Made by a program: the position numbers and the translations under genes | Part shown: piece by piece, positions 51,535 to 62,890 of the stretch | Position numbering within the stretch: the first letter of the stretch is position 1 | How the letters are laid out: each line of letters begins with the position of its first letter | Notes under the pieces: generated by a model | Database searches by the model: none | The model's input: only the letters and a program-made list of their open reading frames with translations | Told to the model about the DNA's origin: nothing | Source of the DNA: Rhodothermales bacterium | GTDB taxonomy: Bacteria; Bacteroidota; Rhodothermia; Rhodothermales; VXPQ01 | NCBI GenBank assembly: GCA_951812345.1 | Contig: OX638295.1 | Location: 62,001-126,000 of the forward strand | DNA: 64,000 bases | Direction: 5' to 3'

Positions 51535-52905
51535 TCATTCCTTCCCTTCCGCGTATTTCCGTACGCGGCGTTCGATCTCCTCTTCGGCGTCGCGACGCCG
51601 GAGTTCTTCCATGCGCCGGGCCACCTCCGCCTCGTATCCGATCTCGCCGGGTTCGTAAAAATACGTGCCCCGCATTTCGTCGGGCAGATACTGCTGAGGC
51701 ACATAGTGCTCCTGGAACGCATGGGGATACTTGTACCCCTTTCCGTGGCCGAATCCCTCCTTGTCCCGGCTGGCGTCCTTCAGGTGATTCGGCACGTCGT
51801 CGGACCGTTCATTCCGGACATGGGAAAGCGCGCTGAAATACGACATGGTGGAGTTGCCCTTGGGCGCAGTGGCCAGATACAGGCAGCACTCGGATAACAT
51901 GAATTGCCCTTCGGGCATTCCCACATAGTCGAATCCATGCGCCGTGGCGGACACGATCCGGAGCGCGTGGGGATCCGCCAGCCCGATGTCCTCCGCCGCG
52001 AAGATGAACATGCGGCGAATGATGAAGCGGGGGTCCTCCCCGGCGTAAATCATTTTCGCCATCCAGTACAGGGCCGCATCGGGATCGGACCCCCGAAGGC
52101 TCTTGATGAACGCGCTGATCGTGTCGTAGTGTACGTCCCCCTCCTTGTCGTACAGCACGGCGCGCCGCTGGATGCTTTCCTCCGCCACAGCCAGATCGAT
52201 CCGAATGGCGCCTGCCTCGTCCGGATCGGTCGTCTCCACGGCCAGTTCCAGCGCATTCAGCACAGAGCGGGCGTCGCCGTTGGCCGTATCGATCAGATGC
52301 TCGAGGGCCTCCGGCTCGACCTGCACATCAGCGCTGCCGTACCCGCGCTCCTTATCTCCAAGTGTATATAGGGCGATTTTCCGCAGCGCTTCTTCGTCGA
52401 GCGTCTGCAACTCGAAGATGCGGGACCGGCTCACGAGCGCCTTATTGACCTCGAAATACGGGTTCTCTGTCGTGGCCCCGATCAGCACGACGGTCCCGTT
52501 CTCGACATGCGGCAGAAGCGCATCCTGTTGCGACTTGTTGAACCGGTGCACCTCGTCGATGAACAGGATCGTCCGCCGTTGATGCTGCTCCAGACGGGCC
52601 TTCGCATCCCCGATCGCCTCGCGAATGTCCTTCACCCCGGACAGCACCGCATTGAGCGAGGTGAAATGCGCCTTGGTGGTGTTCGCAATGATGCGGGCCA
52701 GCGTGGTCTTGCCGCTGCCCGGCGGGCCATAGAAAATCACGGACGTGATGCGATCCGCCTGAATGGCCCGGCGCAGGAGCCGGCCCGGCCCGAGGATGTG
52801 TTCCTGCCCGACGAACTCGTCCAGCGTGCGGGGACGCATGCGGTCCGCCAGGGGGGCGTTCCGCGCCAAATACCGGTGAGCGGCTTCCTTGAACAAGTCG
52901 GGCAT
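51535..52905 (-). CDS. rarA: Replication-associated recombination protein RarA (MgsA)
   Basis: A 456-residue AAA+ ATPase of the clamp-loader family acting at stalled replication forks. Walker A GPPGSGKT is at residues 60-67, Walker B FIDEVHRF at about 115-122, and sensor-1 ATTENPYFEVN with SRSRIFEL follows. The C-terminal part has the MgsA/tetramerisation domain (RGSDPDAALYWMAKMIYAGEDPRFI and LPDEMRGTYFYEP). It is convergent with the TRAP operon. The IS256 remnant lies about 40 bases upstream of its start. Confidence 0.95.
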   Translation of the reverse strand: MPDLFKEAAHRYLARNAPLADRMRPRTLDEFVGQEHILGPGRLLRRAIQADRITSVIFYGPPGSGKTTLARIIANTTKAHFTSLNAVLSGVKDIREAIGDAKARLEQHQRRTILFIDEVHRFNKSQQDALLPHVENGTVVLIGATTENPYFEVNKALVSRSRIFELQTLDEEALRKIALYTLGDKERGYGSADVQVEPEALEHLIDTANGDARSVLNALELAVETTDPDEAGAIRIDLAVAEESIQRRAVLYDKEGDVHYDTISAFIKSLRGSDPDAALYWMAKMIYAGEDPRFIIRRMFIFAAEDIGLADPHALRIVSATAHGFDYVGMPEGQFMLSECCLYLATAPKGNSTMSYFSALSHVRNERSDDVPNHLKDASRDKEGFGHGKGYKYPHAFQEHYVPQQYLPDEMRGTYFYEPGEIGYEAEVARRMEELRRRDAEEEIERRVRKYAEGKE

Positions 52906-52920
52906 GGGAAAAAGGTATCT

Positions 52921-53157
52921 TCAACGGCGCAGGATGCATTGGAAAGGCGTGTCCGCTAAACTGTGTAAGCGGCATGATTGTTCAGTGGGAACACGGTCCT
53001 CGTAGAGTATGGCGAACTGGTTGAGGGCGGCCTTCCAGTCGCGTAGGGGTCGCTTCCATTTCTTCGAGGCCTCCCGCAGGCCGAGCCAGAGCAGTTCGGA
53101 GATCGCCTCGTCGTTCGGGAAAGCGCCCTTGTCCTTGACGATCCTTCGCAGGCTGTA
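52921..53157 (-). pseudogene. IS256-family transposase C-terminal remnant
   Basis: About 60 residues match the C-terminus of Mutator/IS256 transposases: RRIVKDKGAFPNDEAISEL, then LLWLGLREASKKWKRPL and RDWKAALNQFAILYEDRVP. The N-terminal two thirds are absent; the fragment is cut at 53158, where the repeat fragment F begins. A sequence resembling an IS terminal inverted repeat (GTGTCCGCTAAACTGTGTAAG) lies at about 52949-52969. It is non-functional. The extra C-terminal residues after RVPTEQ run into the IS end. Confidence 0.8.
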
Positions 53158-53219
53158 GGATACTCTGATTAAGTCCGCAAAACCCGGAGGCCGAGAGGGG
53201 TGCGCCGGCCGCATCATTC
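53158..53219 (-). repeat. Truncated MITE-like repeat, fragment F
   Basis: About 62 bases beginning GGATACTCTGATTAAGTCCGC, matching one terminus of the family and abutting the IS256 remnant exactly. The opposite end is absent. The right end (GGCCGCATCATTCC) resembles an internal part of copy E in the other orientation, so the piece is rearranged. Confidence 0.7.
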
Positions 53220-53362
53220 CCCCTTTATCCGTAATTCCCGAATCGTACCGTGACGGAAGAAATAGACAGGCCCTGTATGGAACGCTCCCTCCGGGAACTT
53301 GACAATCGACACCCGGCGACGTAATTTCACAGAGCCGCCACTAAAAGAGGCCTGAGCGCAAG

Positions 53363-53432
53363 CGCACAGCGCATTTGCAAACGCGAAAAAGCCGTACCGG
53401 TTGTTTTTTCGCGTTTGCAAATGCGCTGTGCG
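53363..53432. repeat. Perfect 28-bp inverted repeat upstream of the giant LRR gene
   Basis: Left arm 53363-53390 (CGCACAGCGCATTTGCAAAC...) is the exact reverse complement of right arm 53405-53432, separated by a 14-base loop. A G-T wobble and two A-T pairs extend the stem. It ends 53 bases before the ATG at 53486. It could form a cruciform or a strong RNA hairpin; T-runs lie inside the stem rather than after it, so it is not a standard terminator. Confidence 0.9.
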
Positions 53433-53485
53433 TTTCCAAGCTTTGAACCTCAAAAAGATCGTACAGAAGTACCGGAATCCGAACC

Positions 53486-56400
53486 ATGAGCAAGAAAAAG
53501 ATTCGAGCGCTCCCTTGTTCAAAGCATTATAATAACGCTAACGATGCGTCTTTCGACGCGCTCCATGTCGGCCGTCGCATCGTAGCCCACCGCTTGCGCC
53601 GCACGTTCGCCTTTCTCCTTCGACCGGTGGGGATTGCTCTTGTCGCGGTTGCCTTGCCGGCCGCATCCGGGACGGCGTACGCTCAGACCGACAAAGATGC
53701 GCTGGTCGCGCTCTACAACGCGACCGACGGGGCCAATTGGGATAAAAATACCAACTGGAACAGTAGCGCCGCCCTCGATGATTGGTACGGCGTCGAAACC
53801 GACGCCAACGGACGGGTGGACTCTCTGGCCCTCGGTACCAACCTTCTGTCGGGGTCGATTCCGGCGGAGCTGGGCGACTTGACCAACCTCAAATACCTGG
53901 CCCTCAATAACAACTCTCTGTCGGGGTCGATTCCGGCAGAGCTGGGCGACTTGACCAACCTCCGCGAACTGTACCTCCGCGAAAACAACCTGACGGGGTC
54001 GATCCCGGCGGCGTTGGGCGACTTGACCAACCTCGAATGGCTGTCTCTCTACAACAACGGCTTGACGGGGTCGATCCCGGCGAAGCTCGGCGACTTGACC
54101 AGCCTCGAGGTACTATATCTCCAGAGCAACTCCCTTTCGGGGTCGATCCCGGCGGAGTTGGGCAACTTGGATTCCCTAACGCACCTGTATCTCAACGGAA
54201 ACTCCCTGACGGGGTCGATCCCGGCGGCGTTGGGCAACCTGGATTTCCTAAGGCACTTGCATCTCTCCGACAACTCCCTGTCGGGGTCGATCCCGGCGGA
54301 GTTGGGCAACCTGGCCGAACTCGTAGGCCTGTATCTCAACGGAAACGGCCTGACGGGGTCGGTCCCGGCGGAGTTAATCAACTTGATGAACACTCTCTCG
54401 TACTTGCATGTCGACGACGCGCTGTGCGTCCCGGGAGATACCGCATTCCAGGATTGGCTTGGCAATCTCTTTTCATTCATAGGCGACAGCGACAACATCT
54501 GCGTGCCTGTGGCCAACGCAGGCCTCGACCAGACGGTGGCGGAGGGGGAGACGGTGACGCTATCCGGTTCAGGTACGGACAGTAATGGCAATGCGCTGAT
54601 CAACCCGACCTACTCCTGGACGGCGCCGGCGGGGATCACGCTGTCGAGTACCACGGAGCCGCACGAGCGGACGTTCACGGCGCCGCAGGTCCTGTCGGAC
54701 ACAGTGCTGACGTTCTGGCTGACGGTGAACGACGGAGATAACAACTCCGCGAGGGACACGGTGCTGGTGACGGTGCAGAAGGACAGAGCGGCGCTGGTCG
54801 CGCTCTACGATTCGACCAACGGGGCCAATTGGGACACCAATACCAACTGGAACAGTAGCGCGCCCCTCCGTGAATGGCACGGCGTCTTCACCGACGCCGC
54901 CGGACGGGTGGACTCTCTGGAGCTCCGTACAAACTCCCTGACGGGTTCGATCCCGGCGGAGTTGGGCGACCTGGACTCTCTCAAGCACCTGGATCTCAAC
55001 ACAAACTCCCTGACGGGGTCGATCCCGGCGGAGTTGGGCGACTTGACCAACCTAGAGACACTGGATCTCGGAAGAAACAGCCTGACGGGTTCGATCCCGG
55101 CGGAGCTGGGCGACTTGACCAACCTCCAGGAACTGTGGCTCAACAGCAACAAAAACAACAACAACGACACTGGCCTGACGGGGTCGATTCCGGCGGAGTT
55201 GGGCAACTTGACCAACCTCGAAGAATTGCATCTCGGTAGCAACTCCCTGACGGGGTCGATCCCGATGGAGTTGGGCGACTTGACCAAACTAGAGCGTCTG
55301 TTTCTCGACAGCAACGACCTGACGGGGTCGATCCCGGCGGAGCTGGGCAATTTGACCAGCCTCGAACAACTGTCTCTCTATTCCAACGACTTGACGGGGT
55401 CGATCCCGGCGGAGTTGAGCAACTTGACCAAACTAGAGCGTCTGTTTCTCGACAGCAACGACCTGACGGGGTCGATCCCGGCGGAGTTAATCAACTTGAT
55501 GGGCACTCTCTCGTACTTGCATGTCGACGACGCGCTGTGCGTCCCGGGAGATACCGCATTCCAGGATTGGCTTGGCAATCTCTATGAATTTCAGGGCGAC
55601 AGCAACAACATCTGCAGCGAGGCGCCAACGGCCAACGCAGGCGACGACCAGGCGGTGGCGGAGGGGGAGACGGTGACGCTATCCGGTTCAGGTACGGACC
55701 TGCAGAACGATCCGCTGACCTATGCCTGGACGGCGCCGGCGGAGATCACGCTGTTGAATCCGGTGGACAATTCGGAGACGGGTTCCACGGTGAGTAATCC
55801 CTATTTCACGGCGCCGCAGGTCCTGTCGGACACGGTGCTTACGTTCTGGCTGACGGTGAACGACGGAGAGAACAACTCCGCGAGGGACACGGTGCTGGTG
55901 ACGGTGCAGAAGGACAGAGCGGCGCTGATCGCGCTCTACGATTCGACCAACGGGGCCAATTGGGACACCAATACCAACTGGAACAGTAGCGCGCCCCTCC
56001 GTGAATGGCACGGCGTCTTCACCGACGCCGCCGGACGGGTGGACTCTCTGGAGCTCCGTACAAACAACCTGACGGGGTCGATTCCGGCGGCGTTGGGCGA
56101 CCTGGACTCTCTCAAGCACCTGGATCTCAACACAAACTCCCTGACGGGGTCGATCCCGGCCGAGTTGGGCAACTTGACCAACCTCGAGACACTGAATCTC
56201 GGAAGAAACAGCCTGACGGGGTCGATCCCGACGGAGCTGGGCGACTTGACCAACCTCCAGAAACTGTGGCTCCACGGCAACAAAAACAACAACAACGACA
56301 CTGGCCTGACGGGGTCGATTCCGGCGGAGTTGGGCAACTTGACCAACCTCGAAGAATTGCATCTCGGTAGCAACTCCCTGACGGGGTCGATCCCGATGGA

Positions 56401-59400
56401 GTTGGGCGACTTGACCAAACTAGAGCGTCTGTTTCTCGACAGCAACGACCTGACGGGGTCGATCCCGGCGGAGCTGGGCAACTTGACCAGCCTCGAACAA
56501 CTGTCTCTCTATTCCAACGACTTGACGGGGTCGATCCCGGCGGAGTTGAGCAACTTGACCAAACTAGAGCGTCTGTTTCTCGACAGCAACGACCTGACGG
56601 GGTCGATCCCGGCGGAGTTAATCAACTTGATGGGCACTCTCTCGTACTTGCATGTCGACGACGCGCTGTGCGTCCCGGGAGATACCGCATTCCAGGATTG
56701 GCTTGGCAATCTCTATGAATTCCAGGGCGACAGCAACAACATCTGCAGCGAGGCGCCAACGGCCAACGCAGGCGACGACCAGGCGGTGGCGGAGGGGGAG
56801 ACGGTGACGCTATCCGGTTCAGGTACGGACCCGGAGGGCGATCCGCTGACCTATACCTGGACGGCGCCGGCGGAGATCACGCTGTCGAGTACCAGGGAGC
56901 CGCACGAGCGGACGTTCACGGCGCCGCAGGTCCTGTCGGACACGGTGCTTACGTTCTGGCTGACGGTGAACGACGGAGAGAACAACTCCGCGAGGGACAC
57001 GGTGCTGGTGACGGTGCAGAAGGACAGAGCGGCGCTGATCGCGCTCTACGATTCGACCAACGGGGCCAATTGGAGCATCGATAACAACTGGAACAGTAGC
57101 GCGCCCCTCAGTGAATGGCACGGCGTCGGCACCGATAGCGACGGACGGGTGGACTCTCTGGCGCTCTTTAGCAACTCCCTGACGGGGTCGATCCCGGCGG
57201 CGTTGGGCGACTTGACCAAACTCAAATACCTGAATCTCACCAACAACTCCCTGACGGGGCCGATCCCGGCGGAGTTGGGCAACTTGACCAAACTCGAGAC
57301 ACTGGATCTCCGCGACAACAAAGAAAACCGAAACGGTGGCCTGACGGGGTCGATCCCGGCAGAGTTGGGCGATTTGACCAACCTAAAAGAACTGAATCTC
57401 TTCAACAACTCCCTGACGGGGTCGATCCCGGCAGAGTTGGGCGACCTGGACTCTCTCAAGCACCTGGCTCTCTACAACAACTCCCTGACGGGGTCGATCC
57501 CGGCAGAGTTGGGCGATTTGACCAACCTAAAAGAACTGAATCTCTTCAACAACTCCCTGACGGGGTCGATCCCGGCAGAGTTGGGCAACTTGGACTCTCT
57601 CAAGCACCTGGCTCTCTACAACAACTCCTTGACGGGGTCGATCCCGGCGGAGTTGGGCGACCTGGACTCTCTCAAGCACCTGAATCTCTTCAACAACTCC
57701 CTGACGGGGTCGATCCCGGCGGAGCTGGGCGATTTGACCAACCTCAATAGACTGGTTCTCAACAGCAACGCTCTGACGGGGTCGATCCCGGCGGCGTTGG
57801 GCGACTTGACCAACCTCGAAGAATTGCATCTCAATAGCAACTTCCTGACGAGGTCGATCCCGGCGGAGTTGGGCGACTTGACCAACCTCCAGTTCCTGTA
57901 TCTCAACAGAAACGACCTGACGGGGTCGATCCCGGCAGAGTTGGGCGACTTGGATTCCCTAAAGTACTTGGATCTCTCCGAAAACGAACTGACGGGTTCG
58001 ATCCCGGCGAAGCTGGGCGACTTGACCAACCTCCAGTTCCTGTATCTCAACAGAAACGACCTGACGGGGTCGATCCCGGCAGAGTTTATCAACTTGAGCG
58101 AGCTCGAGTACTTGCGTGTCGCCAGCGAGCTGTGCGTGCCGGGAGATAACGCGTTCCAGCAATGGCTTGGCAATCTCGAGGAATTCTCAGGCGACAGCGA
58201 CAACATCTGCAACGATGCGCCGACGGCCGACGCAGGCCCCGACCAGAGGATTGCGGAGGGGGCGACGGTGACGCTGAACGGGAGTCGCAGCTCCGACCCG
58301 GAGGGCGCAATGCTTACCTACGCCTGGGTTGCTCCGGCGGGGATCACGCTGTTGGATTCCACGACGACGACGCCGTATTTCACGGCGCCGACTGGGCTTT
58401 CGAAGGACTCGGTGCTGACGTTCTCGCTGACGGTGGACAACGGGACGCAAAAATCCGCCCCGGACACGGTGGTGGTGACGGTGCTTCAGAAGGACAAAGC
58501 GGCGTTGATCGCGCTCTACGATTCGACCGACGGGGCCAATTGGAGAGACAATACCAACTGGGGCACTAACGCCGCCCTCGATACGTGGTTCGGCGTCGGC
58601 ACCGACGCCACCGGACGAGTGGACTCTCTGACTATCGATTTCAACAATAACCTGTCGGGTTCGATCCCGGCGGCGTTGGGCGACTTGACCAAACTCAAAT
58701 ACCTGAATCTCAACAACAACTCCCTGACGGGGCCGATCCCGGCGGAATTGGGCAACCTGGACTCCCTCAAATACCTGAATCTCAACGGCAATGCCCTGAC
58801 GGGGTCGATCCCGGCGGCGTTGGGCAACTTGACCAAACTCGAGACACTGGATCTCCGCGACAACAAAGAAAACCGAAACGGTGGCCTGACGGGGTCGATC
58901 CCGGCAGAGTTGGGCGATTTGACCAACCTAAAAGAACTGAATCTCTTCAACAACTCCCTGACGGGGTCGATCCCGGCAGAGTTGGGCAACTTGACCAAAC
59001 TAGAGCGTCTGTTTCTCAACAACAACGACCTGACGGGGTCGATCCCGGCGGCGTTGGGCGACTTGACCAACCTAAAAGAACTGAATCTCTTCAACAACTC
59101 CCTGACGGGGTCGATCCCGGCGGAGCTGGGCGATTTGACCAACTTAGAAGAACTGAATCTCTTCAACAACTCCCTGATGGGGTCGATTCCGGCGGCGTTG
59201 GGCGACTTGACCAAACTAGAGCGTCTGTTTCTCAACAACAACGACCTGACGGGGTCGATCCCGGCGGAGTTGGGCGACTTGACCAAACTAGAGCGTCTGT
59301 TTCTCAACAGCAATGCCCTGACGGGGTCGATCCCGGCGAAGCTGGGCGACTTGACCAACCTCGAAGAATTGCATCTCAATAGCAACTCCCTGACGGGTTC

Positions 59401-62400
59401 GATCCCGGCGAAGCTGGGCGACTTGACCAATCTCCGGTTCCTGTATCTCAACAGAAACGACCTGACGGGGTCGATCCCGACGGCGTTTATCAACTTGAGC
59501 GAGCTCGAGTACTTGCGTGTCGCCAGCGAGCTGTGCGTGCCGGGAGATACCGCATTCCAGGAATGGCTTGGCGATCTCGAGGAATTCTCAGGCGACAGCG
59601 ACAACATCTGCAACGATGCGCCGACGGCCGACGCAGGCCCCGACCAGAGGGTTGCGGAGGGGGCGACGGTGACGCTGAACGGGAGTCGCAGCTCCGACCC
59701 GGAGGGCGCAATGCTTACCTACGCCTGGGTTGCTCCGGCGGGGATCACGCTGTTGGATTCCACGACGACGACGACGTATTTCACGGCGCCGACTGGGCTT
59801 TCGAAGGACTCGGTGCTGACGTTCTCGCTGACGGTGGACAACGGGACGCAAAAATCCGCCCCGGACACGGTGGTGGTGACGGTGCTTCGGAAGGACAAAG
59901 CGGCGTTGATCGCGCTCTACGATTCGACGGACGGGGCCAATTGGAGAGACAATACCAACTGGGGCACTAACGCCGCCCTCGATACGTGGTTCGGCGTCGG
60001 CACCGACGCCACCGGACGAGTGGACTCTCTGACTATCGATTTCAACAATAACCTGTCGGGTTCGATCCCGGCGGCGTTGGGCGACCTGGACTCTCTCAAG
60101 TACCTGTATATCTACGACAACGCCCTGACGGGATCGATCCCGGCGGAGCTGGGCGACTTGACCAAACTCAAATACCTGAATCTCAACGGCAATGCCCTGA
60201 CGGGGTCGATCCCGGCAGAGTTGGGCGACTTGACCAACCTTGAAGAACTGTATCTCCACGAAAACAAACTGACGGGGGCGATCCCGGCGATGTTGGGCGA
60301 CTTGACCAATCTCGAGATACTGGATCTCCACGACAACAAACTGACGGGGGCGATCCCGGCGATGCTGGGCGACTTGACCAATCTCGAGATACTGGATCTC
60401 CACGAAAACAAACTGACGGGGGCGATCCCGGCAGAGTTGGGCGACTTGACCAACCTCACGCACCTGTATCTAAACGGAAACTCCCTTACGGGGGCGATCC
60501 CGGCAAAGTTGGGCGCCTTGACCAACCTTGAAGAACTGTATCTCCACGAAAACAAACTGACGGGGGCGATCCCGGCAAAGTTGGGCGAATTGACCAACCT
60601 TGAAGAACTGTATCTCCACGAAAACAAACTGACGGGGGCGATCCCGGCGGCGTTTATCAACTTGGGCAATCTCATGGTCCTGTCTGTCGACGAGGGGCTG
60701 TGCGTGCCGCGAGATACCGCATTCCGGCAATGGCTTGACGAGCTCGATGGCTTCCGGGGCGACAGCGACAACATCTGCATTGCCGCCCCGCCGGCGGTTC
60801 TATCCAGGATTCTCCGCGTGGGCGGAGGATCCGTTACCGTTAACCTGGATACGGAGTATCCTTACGATTCGGGGGCAAACTGGAGTATACGTAACTACCG
60901 GGTGGGGGACGACGACGCGGTGGACAACCCCGGCCATTCGTTTGTCGTCGAATCGTACGCCAGCGTCGTCCTTACCGGCAACAAGCTCACCTTGCGTCCG
61001 ATTTCGGCAGGCGCATTCGAGCTCGCTGCGGATCCGGATGCGAGTGTGGAGAGCGACGAGAAAATCATCCTTGTGGAAGTGATGTCCGCCGATGCGCCCG
61101 TGCTGATACGAGAGGATATCGCCGAGGGAGAAGAGTACAATGATCAAGTCCAGTACCATACGGATCAAGTCATCCTGACGGTAATGGACGAGGAATCGAA
61201 AGAACTGGAACTGCTCGATTACTTCTACGACCCGAACGACGACGCCCTGACCTACGAAGCCAGCGTCGATAAAGCGGGCGCAGGCGACGATGCGGTGGAC
61301 ATCGTAACGGCGACGGTATCCGGTTCCACGTTGAGGATCGCACTTACGGACCAGGCCCAAGAGGGCCAATCGACCAACGTTCGGGTGACTGCGACGGACG
61401 GCGCCGGCGAATATGCCCGGTTGCAAGTTACCGCGGCCGTGTCCGGGGCAACCGGGCCGTATGTCGTAACGCCGCTTGCGGATTGGACATTGCGGGAAGA
61501 CGACGATACGGGCATCACGATCAAAGATCTGGGCGACGGATTCGCGGACGACGATCTTGGCGGGCGTTCGCTGGAGTTGACGATCGACGTCGGCGACGAT
61601 ACGACCATAAAAGTGGGCGACGGCGACCGCTTTACGTGGGTTACGCCGTACATGAGGGCGACGGTCGATCTGGCTGCGGAGACCCTGACTATCCTTCCGC
61701 TTGCGCGGGGCACGGACACCTTTACGGTGACCGCCACGGACAAGGGAGAGCCGACGTACGTCTGTCCTGCTGGGTATGCGACAAGCGACGATCCTGTAAC
61801 GGCAACCTCTGACTGTACGAAGGACGGCGAGCCGAACGAGACCGCCAAAGCGGGGTATCCGGACGCCCAATCCGTATCGGATTCCTTTACGGTGACGATC
61901 GTGAGCAAGGATGCTCCGACCGTAGCGCAGGCGATTCCTGACCAGGAACTGGATGCCGACGGCGACGCCGCAACAGTGGATCTGGCGGATTTGAACGGCG
62001 ACGAAGACGGCAAGCCGGCTGCGTTCGGAGATCCTGCGATGAGCGGCCTCACGTATACGGCGAGCAGTGCGGACAGCACCGTGGTGGAGGTAGCCGTGCA
62101 GGGCTCCGTCATAACGCTTACGCCCGTGTGGCGTACGGACGAGGCATCTACCGACGTTACGGTGGTGGCCACGAACGCCAGCGAAGAAGCCATCTCGCAA
62201 AGCTTCGGCGTGACGGTCCACGGCGCCACGTTCCCGGTCGTGCGGACCGTCATCGAGAACATTACGCTGAATACGGGCGATCCTGCGACGGTTCTGGATT
62301 TGCGGAATCTGTCGGGCGGAAAAGAGGCCGATCCCGCTTTCCTGGATCCGAATGCGAGAGCGGGCGACGCGCTTCCCGGAGGGTTGTTCTACGAGATGGA

Positions 62401-62890
62401 GGTGGACGCCCCGCACAAATCGCCGTCGAGCACCGCGACCTATGTGATCACCTCGGCCATGAAGTTGACGCTGGATCGATCCGAGGCCACGCTGACGATC
62501 TTGCCGCTCGGATACAACTCGGCCAAGGTCACGCTTACGGCGACCGATCGCGAGAGGAAGGAGGCTTCGCAGACCTTTACGATCTCCGTGATTTCGGGTA
62601 CCGGCACGGAAGACGAGGAACTGCCGACGGAGGTTGAACTCTCTCGGAACTACCCGAACCCGTTCAACCCGCAAACGACCATAGACTACGCTTTGCCGCA
62701 GGCGGGCGACGTGAGCCTGATCGTATACGACATGCTGGGGCGCGAGGTGGAGGTGCTCGTCGACGGTCCGAAGACGGCAGGTCGTCACACGGTGCGTTTC
62801 GGTGCGAACGACTTGCCGAACGGCGTCTACGTGTATCGCCTGGCGGCGGGCGAGAAGACGATCGTGCGCACGATGGTTCTTGTCAAGTAA
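53486..62890 (+). CDS. Giant secreted leucine-rich-repeat / PKD-like protein with T9SS sorting domain
   Basis: A 3134-residue surface protein. A signal region with a long basic N-terminus ends near residue 66 (SGTAYA-QTDK). Six blocks follow, each with an N-cap (for example DKAALIALYDSTDGANW), plant-type 24-residue LRRs (LTNLxxLxLxxNxLTGSIPAELGD) and a C-cap (LCVPGDTAFQDWLGNL, then GDSDNIC). The visible LRRs number about 8, 8, 8, 13, 12 and 9. Five PKD-like domains (ADAGPDQRVAEGATVTLNGS, then VLTFWLTVND) separate the blocks. From about residue 2435 come four cadherin/Ig-like domains with TFTVTATD- and SQSFGVTVHG-like strands. A T9SS sorting domain (SRNYPNPFNPQTTIDYALP, about 3045-3134) closes it. 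Export by type IX secretion and adhesive or ligand-binding function are inferred. No other T9SS gene is visible here. Confidence 0.9.
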   Translation: MSKKKIRALPCSKHYNNANDASFDALHVGRRIVAHRLRRTFAFLLRPVGIALVAVALPAASGTAYAQTDKDALVALYNATDGANWDKNTNWNSSAALDDWYGVETDANGRVDSLALGTNLLSGSIPAELGDLTNLKYLALNNNSLSGSIPAELGDLTNLRELYLRENNLTGSIPAALGDLTNLEWLSLYNNGLTGSIPAKLGDLTSLEVLYLQSNSLSGSIPAELGNLDSLTHLYLNGNSLTGSIPAALGNLDFLRHLHLSDNSLSGSIPAELGNLAELVGLYLNGNGLTGSVPAELINLMNTLSYLHVDDALCVPGDTAFQDWLGNLFSFIGDSDNICVPVANAGLDQTVAEGETVTLSGSGTDSNGNALINPTYSWTAPAGITLSSTTEPHERTFTAPQVLSDTVLTFWLTVNDGDNNSARDTVLVTVQKDRAALVALYDSTNGANWDTNTNWNSSAPLREWHGVFTDAAGRVDSLELRTNSLTGSIPAELGDLDSLKHLDLNTNSLTGSIPAELGDLTNLETLDLGRNSLTGSIPAELGDLTNLQELWLNSNKNNNNDTGLTGSIPAELGNLTNLEELHLGSNSLTGSIPMELGDLTKLERLFLDSNDLTGSIPAELGNLTSLEQLSLYSNDLTGSIPAELSNLTKLERLFLDSNDLTGSIPAELINLMGTLSYLHVDDALCVPGDTAFQDWLGNLYEFQGDSNNICSEAPTANAGDDQAVAEGETVTLSGSGTDLQNDPLTYAWTAPAEITLLNPVDNSETGSTVSNPYFTAPQVLSDTVLTFWLTVNDGENNSARDTVLVTVQKDRAALIALYDSTNGANWDTNTNWNSSAPLREWHGVFTDAAGRVDSLELRTNNLTGSIPAALGDLDSLKHLDLNTNSLTGSIPAELGNLTNLETLNLGRNSLTGSIPTELGDLTNLQKLWLHGNKNNNNDTGLTGSIPAELGNLTNLEELHLGSNSLTGSIPMELGDLTKLERLFLDSNDLTGSIPAELGNLTSLEQLSLYSNDLTGSIPAELSNLTKLERLFLDSNDLTGSIPAELINLMGTLSYLHVDDALCVPGDTAFQDWLGNLYEFQGDSNNICSEAPTANAGDDQAVAEGETVTLSGSGTDPEGDPLTYTWTAPAEITLSSTREPHERTFTAPQVLSDTVLTFWLTVNDGENNSARDTVLVTVQKDRAALIALYDSTNGANWSIDNNWNSSAPLSEWHGVGTDSDGRVDSLALFSNSLTGSIPAALGDLTKLKYLNLTNNSLTGPIPAELGNLTKLETLDLRDNKENRNGGLTGSIPAELGDLTNLKELNLFNNSLTGSIPAELGDLDSLKHLALYNNSLTGSIPAELGDLTNLKELNLFNNSLTGSIPAELGNLDSLKHLALYNNSLTGSIPAELGDLDSLKHLNLFNNSLTGSIPAELGDLTNLNRLVLNSNALTGSIPAALGDLTNLEELHLNSNFLTRSIPAELGDLTNLQFLYLNRNDLTGSIPAELGDLDSLKYLDLSENELTGSIPAKLGDLTNLQFLYLNRNDLTGSIPAEFINLSELEYLRVASELCVPGDNAFQQWLGNLEEFSGDSDNICNDAPTADAGPDQRIAEGATVTLNGSRSSDPEGAMLTYAWVAPAGITLLDSTTTTPYFTAPTGLSKDSVLTFSLTVDNGTQKSAPDTVVVTVLQKDKAALIALYDSTDGANWRDNTNWGTNAALDTWFGVGTDATGRVDSLTIDFNNNLSGSIPAALGDLTKLKYLNLNNNSLTGPIPAELGNLDSLKYLNLNGNALTGSIPAALGNLTKLETLDLRDNKENRNGGLTGSIPAELGDLTNLKELNLFNNSLTGSIPAELGNLTKLERLFLNNNDLTGSIPAALGDLTNLKELNLFNNSLTGSIPAELGDLTNLEELNLFNNSLMGSIPAALGDLTKLERLFLNNNDLTGSIPAELGDLTKLERLFLNSNALTGSIPAKLGDLTNLEELHLNSNSLTGSIPAKLGDLTNLRFLYLNRNDLTGSIPTAFINLSELEYLRVASELCVPGDTAFQEWLGDLEEFSGDSDNICNDAPTADAGPDQRVAEGATVTLNGSRSSDPEGAMLTYAWVAPAGITLLDSTTTTTYFTAPTGLSKDSVLTFSLTVDNGTQKSAPDTVVVTVLRKDKAALIALYDSTDGANWRDNTNWGTNAALDTWFGVGTDATGRVDSLTIDFNNNLSGSIPAALGDLDSLKYLYIYDNALTGSIPAELGDLTKLKYLNLNGNALTGSIPAELGDLTNLEELYLHENKLTGAIPAMLGDLTNLEILDLHDNKLTGAIPAMLGDLTNLEILDLHENKLTGAIPAELGDLTNLTHLYLNGNSLTGAIPAKLGALTNLEELYLHENKLTGAIPAKLGELTNLEELYLHENKLTGAIPAAFINLGNLMVLSVDEGLCVPRDTAFRQWLDELDGFRGDSDNICIAAPPAVLSRILRVGGGSVTVNLDTEYPYDSGANWSIRNYRVGDDDAVDNPGHSFVVESYASVVLTGNKLTLRPISAGAFELAADPDASVESDEKIILVEVMSADAPVLIREDIAEGEEYNDQVQYHTDQVILTVMDEESKELELLDYFYDPNDDALTYEASVDKAGAGDDAVDIVTATVSGSTLRIALTDQAQEGQSTNVRVTATDGAGEYARLQVTAAVSGATGPYVVTPLADWTLREDDDTGITIKDLGDGFADDDLGGRSLELTIDVGDDTTIKVGDGDRFTWVTPYMRATVDLAAETLTILPLARGTDTFTVTATDKGEPTYVCPAGYATSDDPVTATSDCTKDGEPNETAKAGYPDAQSVSDSFTVTIVSKDAPTVAQAIPDQELDADGDAATVDLADLNGDEDGKPAAFGDPAMSGLTYTASSADSTVVEVAVQGSVITLTPVWRTDEASTDVTVVATNASEEAISQSFGVTVHGATFPVVRTVIENITLNTGDPATVLDLRNLSGGKEADPAFLDPNARAGDALPGGLFYEMEVDAPHKSPSSTATYVITSAMKLTLDRSEATLTILPLGYNSAKVTLTATDRERKEASQTFTISVISGTGTEDEELPTEVELSRNYPNPFNPQTTIDYALPQAGDVSLIVYDMLGREVEVLVDGPKTAGRHTVRFGANDLPNGVYVYRLAAGEKTIVRTMVLVK
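54781..57021 (+). repeat. Near-identical in-frame tandem duplication inside the LRR gene
   Basis: Copy 1 at 54781-55911 and copy 2 at 55912-57021 both start GGACAGAGCGGCGCTG and both cover N-cap, eight LRRs, C-cap and PKD-like domain. The shift is 1131 bases (377 codons) through most of the unit. Long stretches are identical, for example the C-cap at 55500-55620 and 56631-56751. Differences are concentrated in the first LRRs and the PKD part. Confidence 0.85.

Follow-up and report, generated by a model that had tools for sequence, protein, structure and literature searches.

The perfect inverted repeat that stands directly before a giant surface-protein gene of a Rhodothermales bacterium probably derives from an IS3-family insertion ahead of an ancestral LRR surface-protein gene, the right end of the insertion having been rebuilt into a hairpin made by fold-back, kept by template switching and possibly having a modest effect at the level of RNA. 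Such an origin from an IS3-family right end, which sequence comparison supports well, had been missed in the original prediction for this DNA. In the proposed mechanism, an IS3-family element would have inserted ahead of the ancestral gene, only its right end being left today. During replication the nascent strand would have folded back at GAAAAACTGTCCAGTTTTTTC and copied the left arm, giving a long hairpin in one event, and later template switches would have copied changes from arm to arm and so kept the hairpin perfect. In its mRNA form the leader would carry a 31-bp duplex ~50 nt before the start codon, which is likely cut by RNase III or shields the 5′ end, with an effect that would be modest rather than essential.

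The inverted repeat and its setting

The features of the leader and its gene are given below with positions in the window, that is, the whole 64-kb stretch of DNA analysed.

53280–53323, plus strand: 3′-terminal remnant of a transposase gene of the IS3 family (codons F D N R x P ...), 78% identical over 45 nt to intact IS copies (blastn, E 3e-4)
53299–53327, plus strand: putative outward promoter TTGACA-17-TAATTT in the old transposase codons, TAATTT agreeing with TATAAT at 3/6 positions
53334–53351, plus strand: small hairpin H1 (GCCGC / GMGGC), from the last transposase codons by alignment with IS 3′ ends, with one mismatch in the window copy
53360–53390, plus strand: left arm, with a match in the subterminal part of the IS3-family right end
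53391–53404, plus strand: loop GCCGTACCGGTTGT, in one orientation across the 4 long copies, with GCCG/CGGT as a weak inner stem
53405–53435, plus strand: right arm, the inverted copy of the left arm, standing after TTTTTTCG in place of the final bases of the IS right end
53436–53485, plus strand: rest of the leader to the start codon, with a loose similarity of 51% to the leader of paralog G000:805k
53486–62890, plus strand: giant LRR / PKD surface-protein gene of 3134 aa with a C-terminal Por_Secre_tail (secretion) domain (domain matches)

The 28-bp perfect inverted repeat with a 14-base loop that had been reported is real. The two 31-nt arms are 97% complementary; the inner 28 pairs (53363–53390 with 53405–53432) are all Watson-Crick, the pair 53362/53433 is G–T, and two A–T pairs lie beyond it, outward. 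Perfect arms of at least 28 nt with a loop of at most 60 nt are expected ~1.5e-10 times per 64 kb at the base composition of the window, in agreement with the earlier view that the repeat is far beyond chance. It is also the only one of its kind, as had been said, no other perfect inverted repeat with arms of at least 13 nt and a loop of at most 60 nt being present in the window. A same-genome sample of 20 further 20-kb stretches (400 kb of 2.82 Mb) held 2 perfect inverted repeats with arms of at least 16 nt and loops of at most 40 nt, and none with arms of at least 20 nt at the same loop limit. RNA folding of 53332–53500 gave −72.7 kcal/mol (z −7.9), which 0/200 shuffles equalled. The search against Rfam returned no score above the gathering threshold, the best being microRNA models with, for example, 37 of 101 bits.

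The claimed placement directly before the giant gene holds, with 50 nt between the end of the right arm and the ATG of the open reading frame, and the LRR, PKD and Por_Secre_tail matches justify the label of surface protein. The gene opens with a 72-bp tandem repeat unit (LRR). The open frame of the window is longer than that of its ortholog (3147 vs 2705 aa), and the repeat number differs between the species.

The leader family

The host genome, G000, is a single contig of 2.82 Mb, and in it the leader is also found ahead of two further genes of the family, at 340 kb (minus strand) and 1.99 Mb (plus strand). In the genome of a sister species, G003 (OX638293.1, a Rhodothermales MAG), it precedes four family genes, at 480 kb, 694 kb, 1397 kb and 2605 kb. 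The suspected link to surface genes is thereby supported: in two sister species the leader stands before seven members of one surface-protein family, three in G000 and four in G003, and it was found before nothing else. An eighth member, at 805 kb in G000, has a leader without the IS-derived part in the alignment. The long hairpin is present in four leaders (the window and G003 at 480 kb, 694 kb and 2605 kb) while the other three (G000 at 340 kb and 1.99 Mb, G003 at 1397 kb) carry a short form, GAGYGCAAGYGCGCTGTGMG.

A widespread REP-type element, the possibility that could have undone the link, was rejected. The arm search of the own genome confined the arm to the three leaders of this family, and a covariance model of the long leaders matched in 2/114 genomes of the order at E 0.01. 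Within the genus there was one further model match below 0.01, G003:1215582–1215708 (E 6.5e-5), which was discarded as a family leader, being a different hairpin from another repeated element. DNA matches in genomes G036 and G037 were set aside as well, as they fall at positions outside the hairpin. The leader was not found in four other genomes of the genus; this absence is weak evidence because the assemblies are broken into 50 to 670 contigs. At 10 other LRR loci a search for perfect inverted repeats with arms of at least 10 nt and a loop of at most 40 nt found none, the true upstream region being barely covered at 5 of them, where the open frame starts no more than ~120 bp from an end of the stretch. 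A literature search found no description of the leader, which is no proof of its being unpublished.

Other repeated elements lie around these loci. The discarded match (L121:1083–1209) is a 23–24 bp near-perfect hairpin on another repeated element (GGATACTCTGATT...), and a relative of that element is also in the window, near 53159–53230. The same interval holds the end of a repeated element, GGATACTCTGATTAAGTCCGC..., common to the flanks of four family loci, and a palindrome with 16-bp arms at G000:1282658–1282704 resembles it in sequence. At G000:1282792–1283001 and G003:1797058–1797264 lie N-terminal pieces of the surface family that have decayed and contain an in-frame stop. On the minus strand of the window, 52921–53217 encodes a 98-aa open reading frame without a Pfam match, which we take to be similar to the C-terminal end of an IS256-type transposase.

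Probable origin in an IS3-family element

Weak matches of the covariance model led to the 3′ ends of IS3-family elements, near-full copies of which (~1287 bp) are present in this genome. Their transposase belongs to the IS3 family (DDE, rve; NF033516, 190 bits). Both NF033516 and PF13683 match the IS copy and also the flank of the sister locus L044, which shares 78% identity with the IS across 291 nt in an unbroken run into the leader; the window copy keeps the last codons only. When left arm and loop were compared with 17 IS ends (3 of 20 copies tried escaped the pattern), shuffles did as well in 0/2000 cases for L044 and in 2/2000 for the window copy, which, taken alone, matches the IS weakly. 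After TTTTTTCG the intact element reads on into its tip, GGACCATTTCT; the leader has instead the reverse complement of the left arm. An intact terminal inverted repeat with the element tip is thus absent here, and the IS end of the leader is a relic and no working end. On these comparisons the IS3 origin of the leader is well supported.

The right terminal repeat of the IS contains the small palindrome GAAAAACTGTCCAGTTTTTTC, which would be a natural seed for fold-back copying. Palindromes of 43–44 bp made from two right-tip copies (AGAAATGGTCCG...CGGACCATTTCT), and not from a left and a right end, were seen elsewhere, at L182:512–554 (G000 ~1185111), L183:558–601 (G000 ~2549557) and L186:611–654 (G003 ~2082910). 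As all three are the same right end extended tipwards, the IS right end has acted as a palindrome seed on more than one occasion. A circle junction of left and right terminal repeats (IRL-IRR) was rejected, since the right arm is unlike the left end of the element (AGAGGTGGTTCGGG...). Nearly the same sequence as from fold-back copying would arise if two IS ends lay tail to tail and lost the middle by deletion.

Outward promoters occur at insertion sequence ends, and the old transposase 3′ end may serve as one here. TTGACA is present in 6/7 leaders and TTGAAA in the seventh, followed after 17 nt by TAATTT or a variant of it, and the intact IS copy L124 has an outward-facing TTGACA-18-TATTCT (10/12). 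A simple promoter scan did not call the window copy, TAATTT being a poor −10.

Pairing and maintenance of the arms

All 31 pairs of the main stem are standard in each of the four long copies. Four pairs have changed on both sides, a number reached by 1/500 shuffles, and when the partners were slid by 1–3 columns there was no two-sided change in any of the six slid versions. Judged by eye against the IS as outgroup, these changes took the lineage of the window, L040 and L043 from AA to GC, L044 from G to A and the window from C to T. With only four long copies, two of which (L040 and L043) have near-identical hairpins, few events underlie the covariation. A palindrome in each arm (TTTGCAAA) was considered as an operator and dropped, since it is present in the window and absent from L044 and is therefore not a conserved operator.

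Template switching can create and maintain such stems, according to a study of RNA hairpins (Monttinen and Loytynoja 2022, PMC8794818). As in hairpins of that origin, the right arm copies a pre-existing sequence and the two-sided changes are clustered. The step from A-U to C-G without a G-U intermediate fits copying from the other arm, and template switching explains the neighbouring AA to GC change on the two arms more readily. SbcD was not found over the curated cut-off of the one model used in any of the six genomes of the genus (G000–G005), and it is present in 18/24 other relatives searched. The genus may thus lack the hairpin nuclease SbcCD, and hairpins may be tolerated for this reason.

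The principal competitor is a cis element acting at the RNA level under selection, the folded leader RNA serving mRNA stability, RNase III processing or expression control. We regard it as possible but less likely, well behind the fold-back account. The pairing held in 4/4 copies with two-sided changes is what it would produce, and the hairpin lies between the putative promoter and the start codon. The strong fold and the RNase III gene present in both genomes also agree with it. The one-sided changes, two in the main stem and one in the inner stem, are all G-U changes, a type tolerated by RNA and not by DNA; G-U pairs persist at two main-stem positions and one inner-stem position, and this fits selection on RNA at least as well as it fits pure template switching. 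Nevertheless, the events are few, and the adjacent AA to GC change speaks for copying between the arms.

The distribution of the short form is a further difficulty for an RNA element. The long leader of G003 at 480 kb and the short one of G000 at 340 kb are orthologous, with 5′ flanks 98–100% identical over the nearest 400 bp, and the latter has 58 nt fewer. If the GCAAG at the left arm's foot is joined on paper to that of the right arm, the short form results, so that a deletion between these repeats, like slippage across the hairpin, would fit. The hairpin was thus lost at one locus between sister species (ortholog pair L043/L008). The genes behind the three short leaders keep open frames (1105, 2023 and 2044 aa), so the long hairpin is dispensable; with three of seven leaders retaining only a short remnant, it is not essential. 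Of the earlier suggestion of a 5′-UTR hairpin or RNase III substrate, the leader form and the availability of RNase III stand; the RNA role, like the fold-back at the IS end from which the long hairpin would have arisen, is something that we infer.

Exchange between paralogs

Informative sites change their grouping at the −35. In the 150 bp before it, 7 sites group by locus, 0 by genome and 2 across (window/L040 and L008/L043 compared); from the −35 through 200 bp past the N-terminal anchor, the same comparison gives 0 by locus, 10 by genome and 2 across. Fisher's exact test on the locus and genome sites only, calculated by hand, gave p ~5e-5, which is overstated as the sites are linked. The genome-type pattern is not general, because comparisons of either locus with a third (L011/L045) show 0–1 genome-type sites per segment. 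The N-terminal stretch is identical between paralogs (L040–L043, 57/57; L008–L011, 42/42) and 69% identical between the orthologs of the window and L040. From the site grouping and these identities it follows that in each genome the paralogs have swapped leader and N-terminus.

These data could suggest that the palindrome heading the leader is itself a DNA-level recombination focus which promotes gene conversion among the family, vlsE-like in effect, and we consider this improbable. It would account for the flip from locus to genome grouping at the −35 and for paralog N-termini that are more alike than those of orthologs. The precedent is vlsE of Lyme Borrelia, where the promoter is overlapped by a 51-bp inverted repeat that increases recombination in a circular plasmid format (PMC11499132, PMC11756760). 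Against it, any point of the homologous leader could be the start of the exchanged tract, sites that share a tract are not independent, and the short-form leaders L008 and L011 also take part in the within-genome exchange. Silent cassettes were not shown, and the missing SbcD argues against breaks made by SbcCD. The fuller version, in which an IS3 right end was captured as a shared promoter-leader and its fold-back palindrome became the recombination focus while the LRR/PKD ectodomains diversified, an independent analogue of the vlsE repeat without detectable SbcD, is equally doubtful. If true, family members would swap leader and signal region while their ectodomains diversify.

Still less probable is that the loop core (GCCG-UAC-CGGU then UUGUUUUUU) acts as a terminator or attenuator and halts RNA polymerase, either within the leader or when transcribing from the antisense side. 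A scan did call one plus-strand terminator-like site with a T-run at 53390–53402; however, 52900–53700 holds two such sites, one of them in the loop core, vs a shuffle mean of 1.3. The inner stem has just 4–5 pairs including a G-U, the core is shorter in L044, and the outer pairs would be superfluous. Long exact inverted repeats beside surface genes do occur in invertible promoters, but a switch in which a recombinase flips the 14-bp loop or the repeat for phase variation is hardly credible here, as the segment carries no promoter, the repeat is accounted for by the IS end, and the inversion of the loop once suggested finds no support in the long copies, 4/4 of which have it in the same orientation.

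Comparison with known systems

Closest to the fold-back account are the template-switch RNA hairpins, which share the reverse-complement stem made in one event and the later two-sided changes preserving pairing. The cases in that work are RNA genes (PMC8794818), whereas in the present case the seed is the palindrome of an IS3-family end and the product lies in the protein-gene leader of a multigene family. The likeness to vlsE (PMC11499132, PMC11756760) consists in a long exact inverted repeat beside a surface-gene promoter and in gene conversion. Here, however, sequence and organism are unrelated, no silent-cassette array is shown, and the exchange seen is limited to leader and N-terminus and took place over evolutionary time.

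Outward promoters of IS ends resemble the leader in having a transposase 3′ end with a TTGACA facing out into the next gene. The differences are that this element has decayed to its right end, that it has been inherited by seven family genes in two species and that its promoter is putative. REP and REPIN sequences are likewise palindromic, transposase-linked intergenic DNA, but the present repeat belongs to the leader of one gene family and is not dispersed, and its parent is of the IS3 type and not a REP-associated tyrosine transposase.

Taken together, the most likely account is that of an IS3-derived promoter-leader whose fold-back hairpin stays perfect mainly by template switching, with a modest RNA role possible. 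The parent (as intact IS ends of the same genome), the product, the two-sided changes and the loss can all be aligned and polarised in one case. Two-sided changes in a long bacterial hairpin are, on their own, not proof of RNA function, and for such hairpins the choice between selection on RNA and template switching during replication is directly testable in bacteria.
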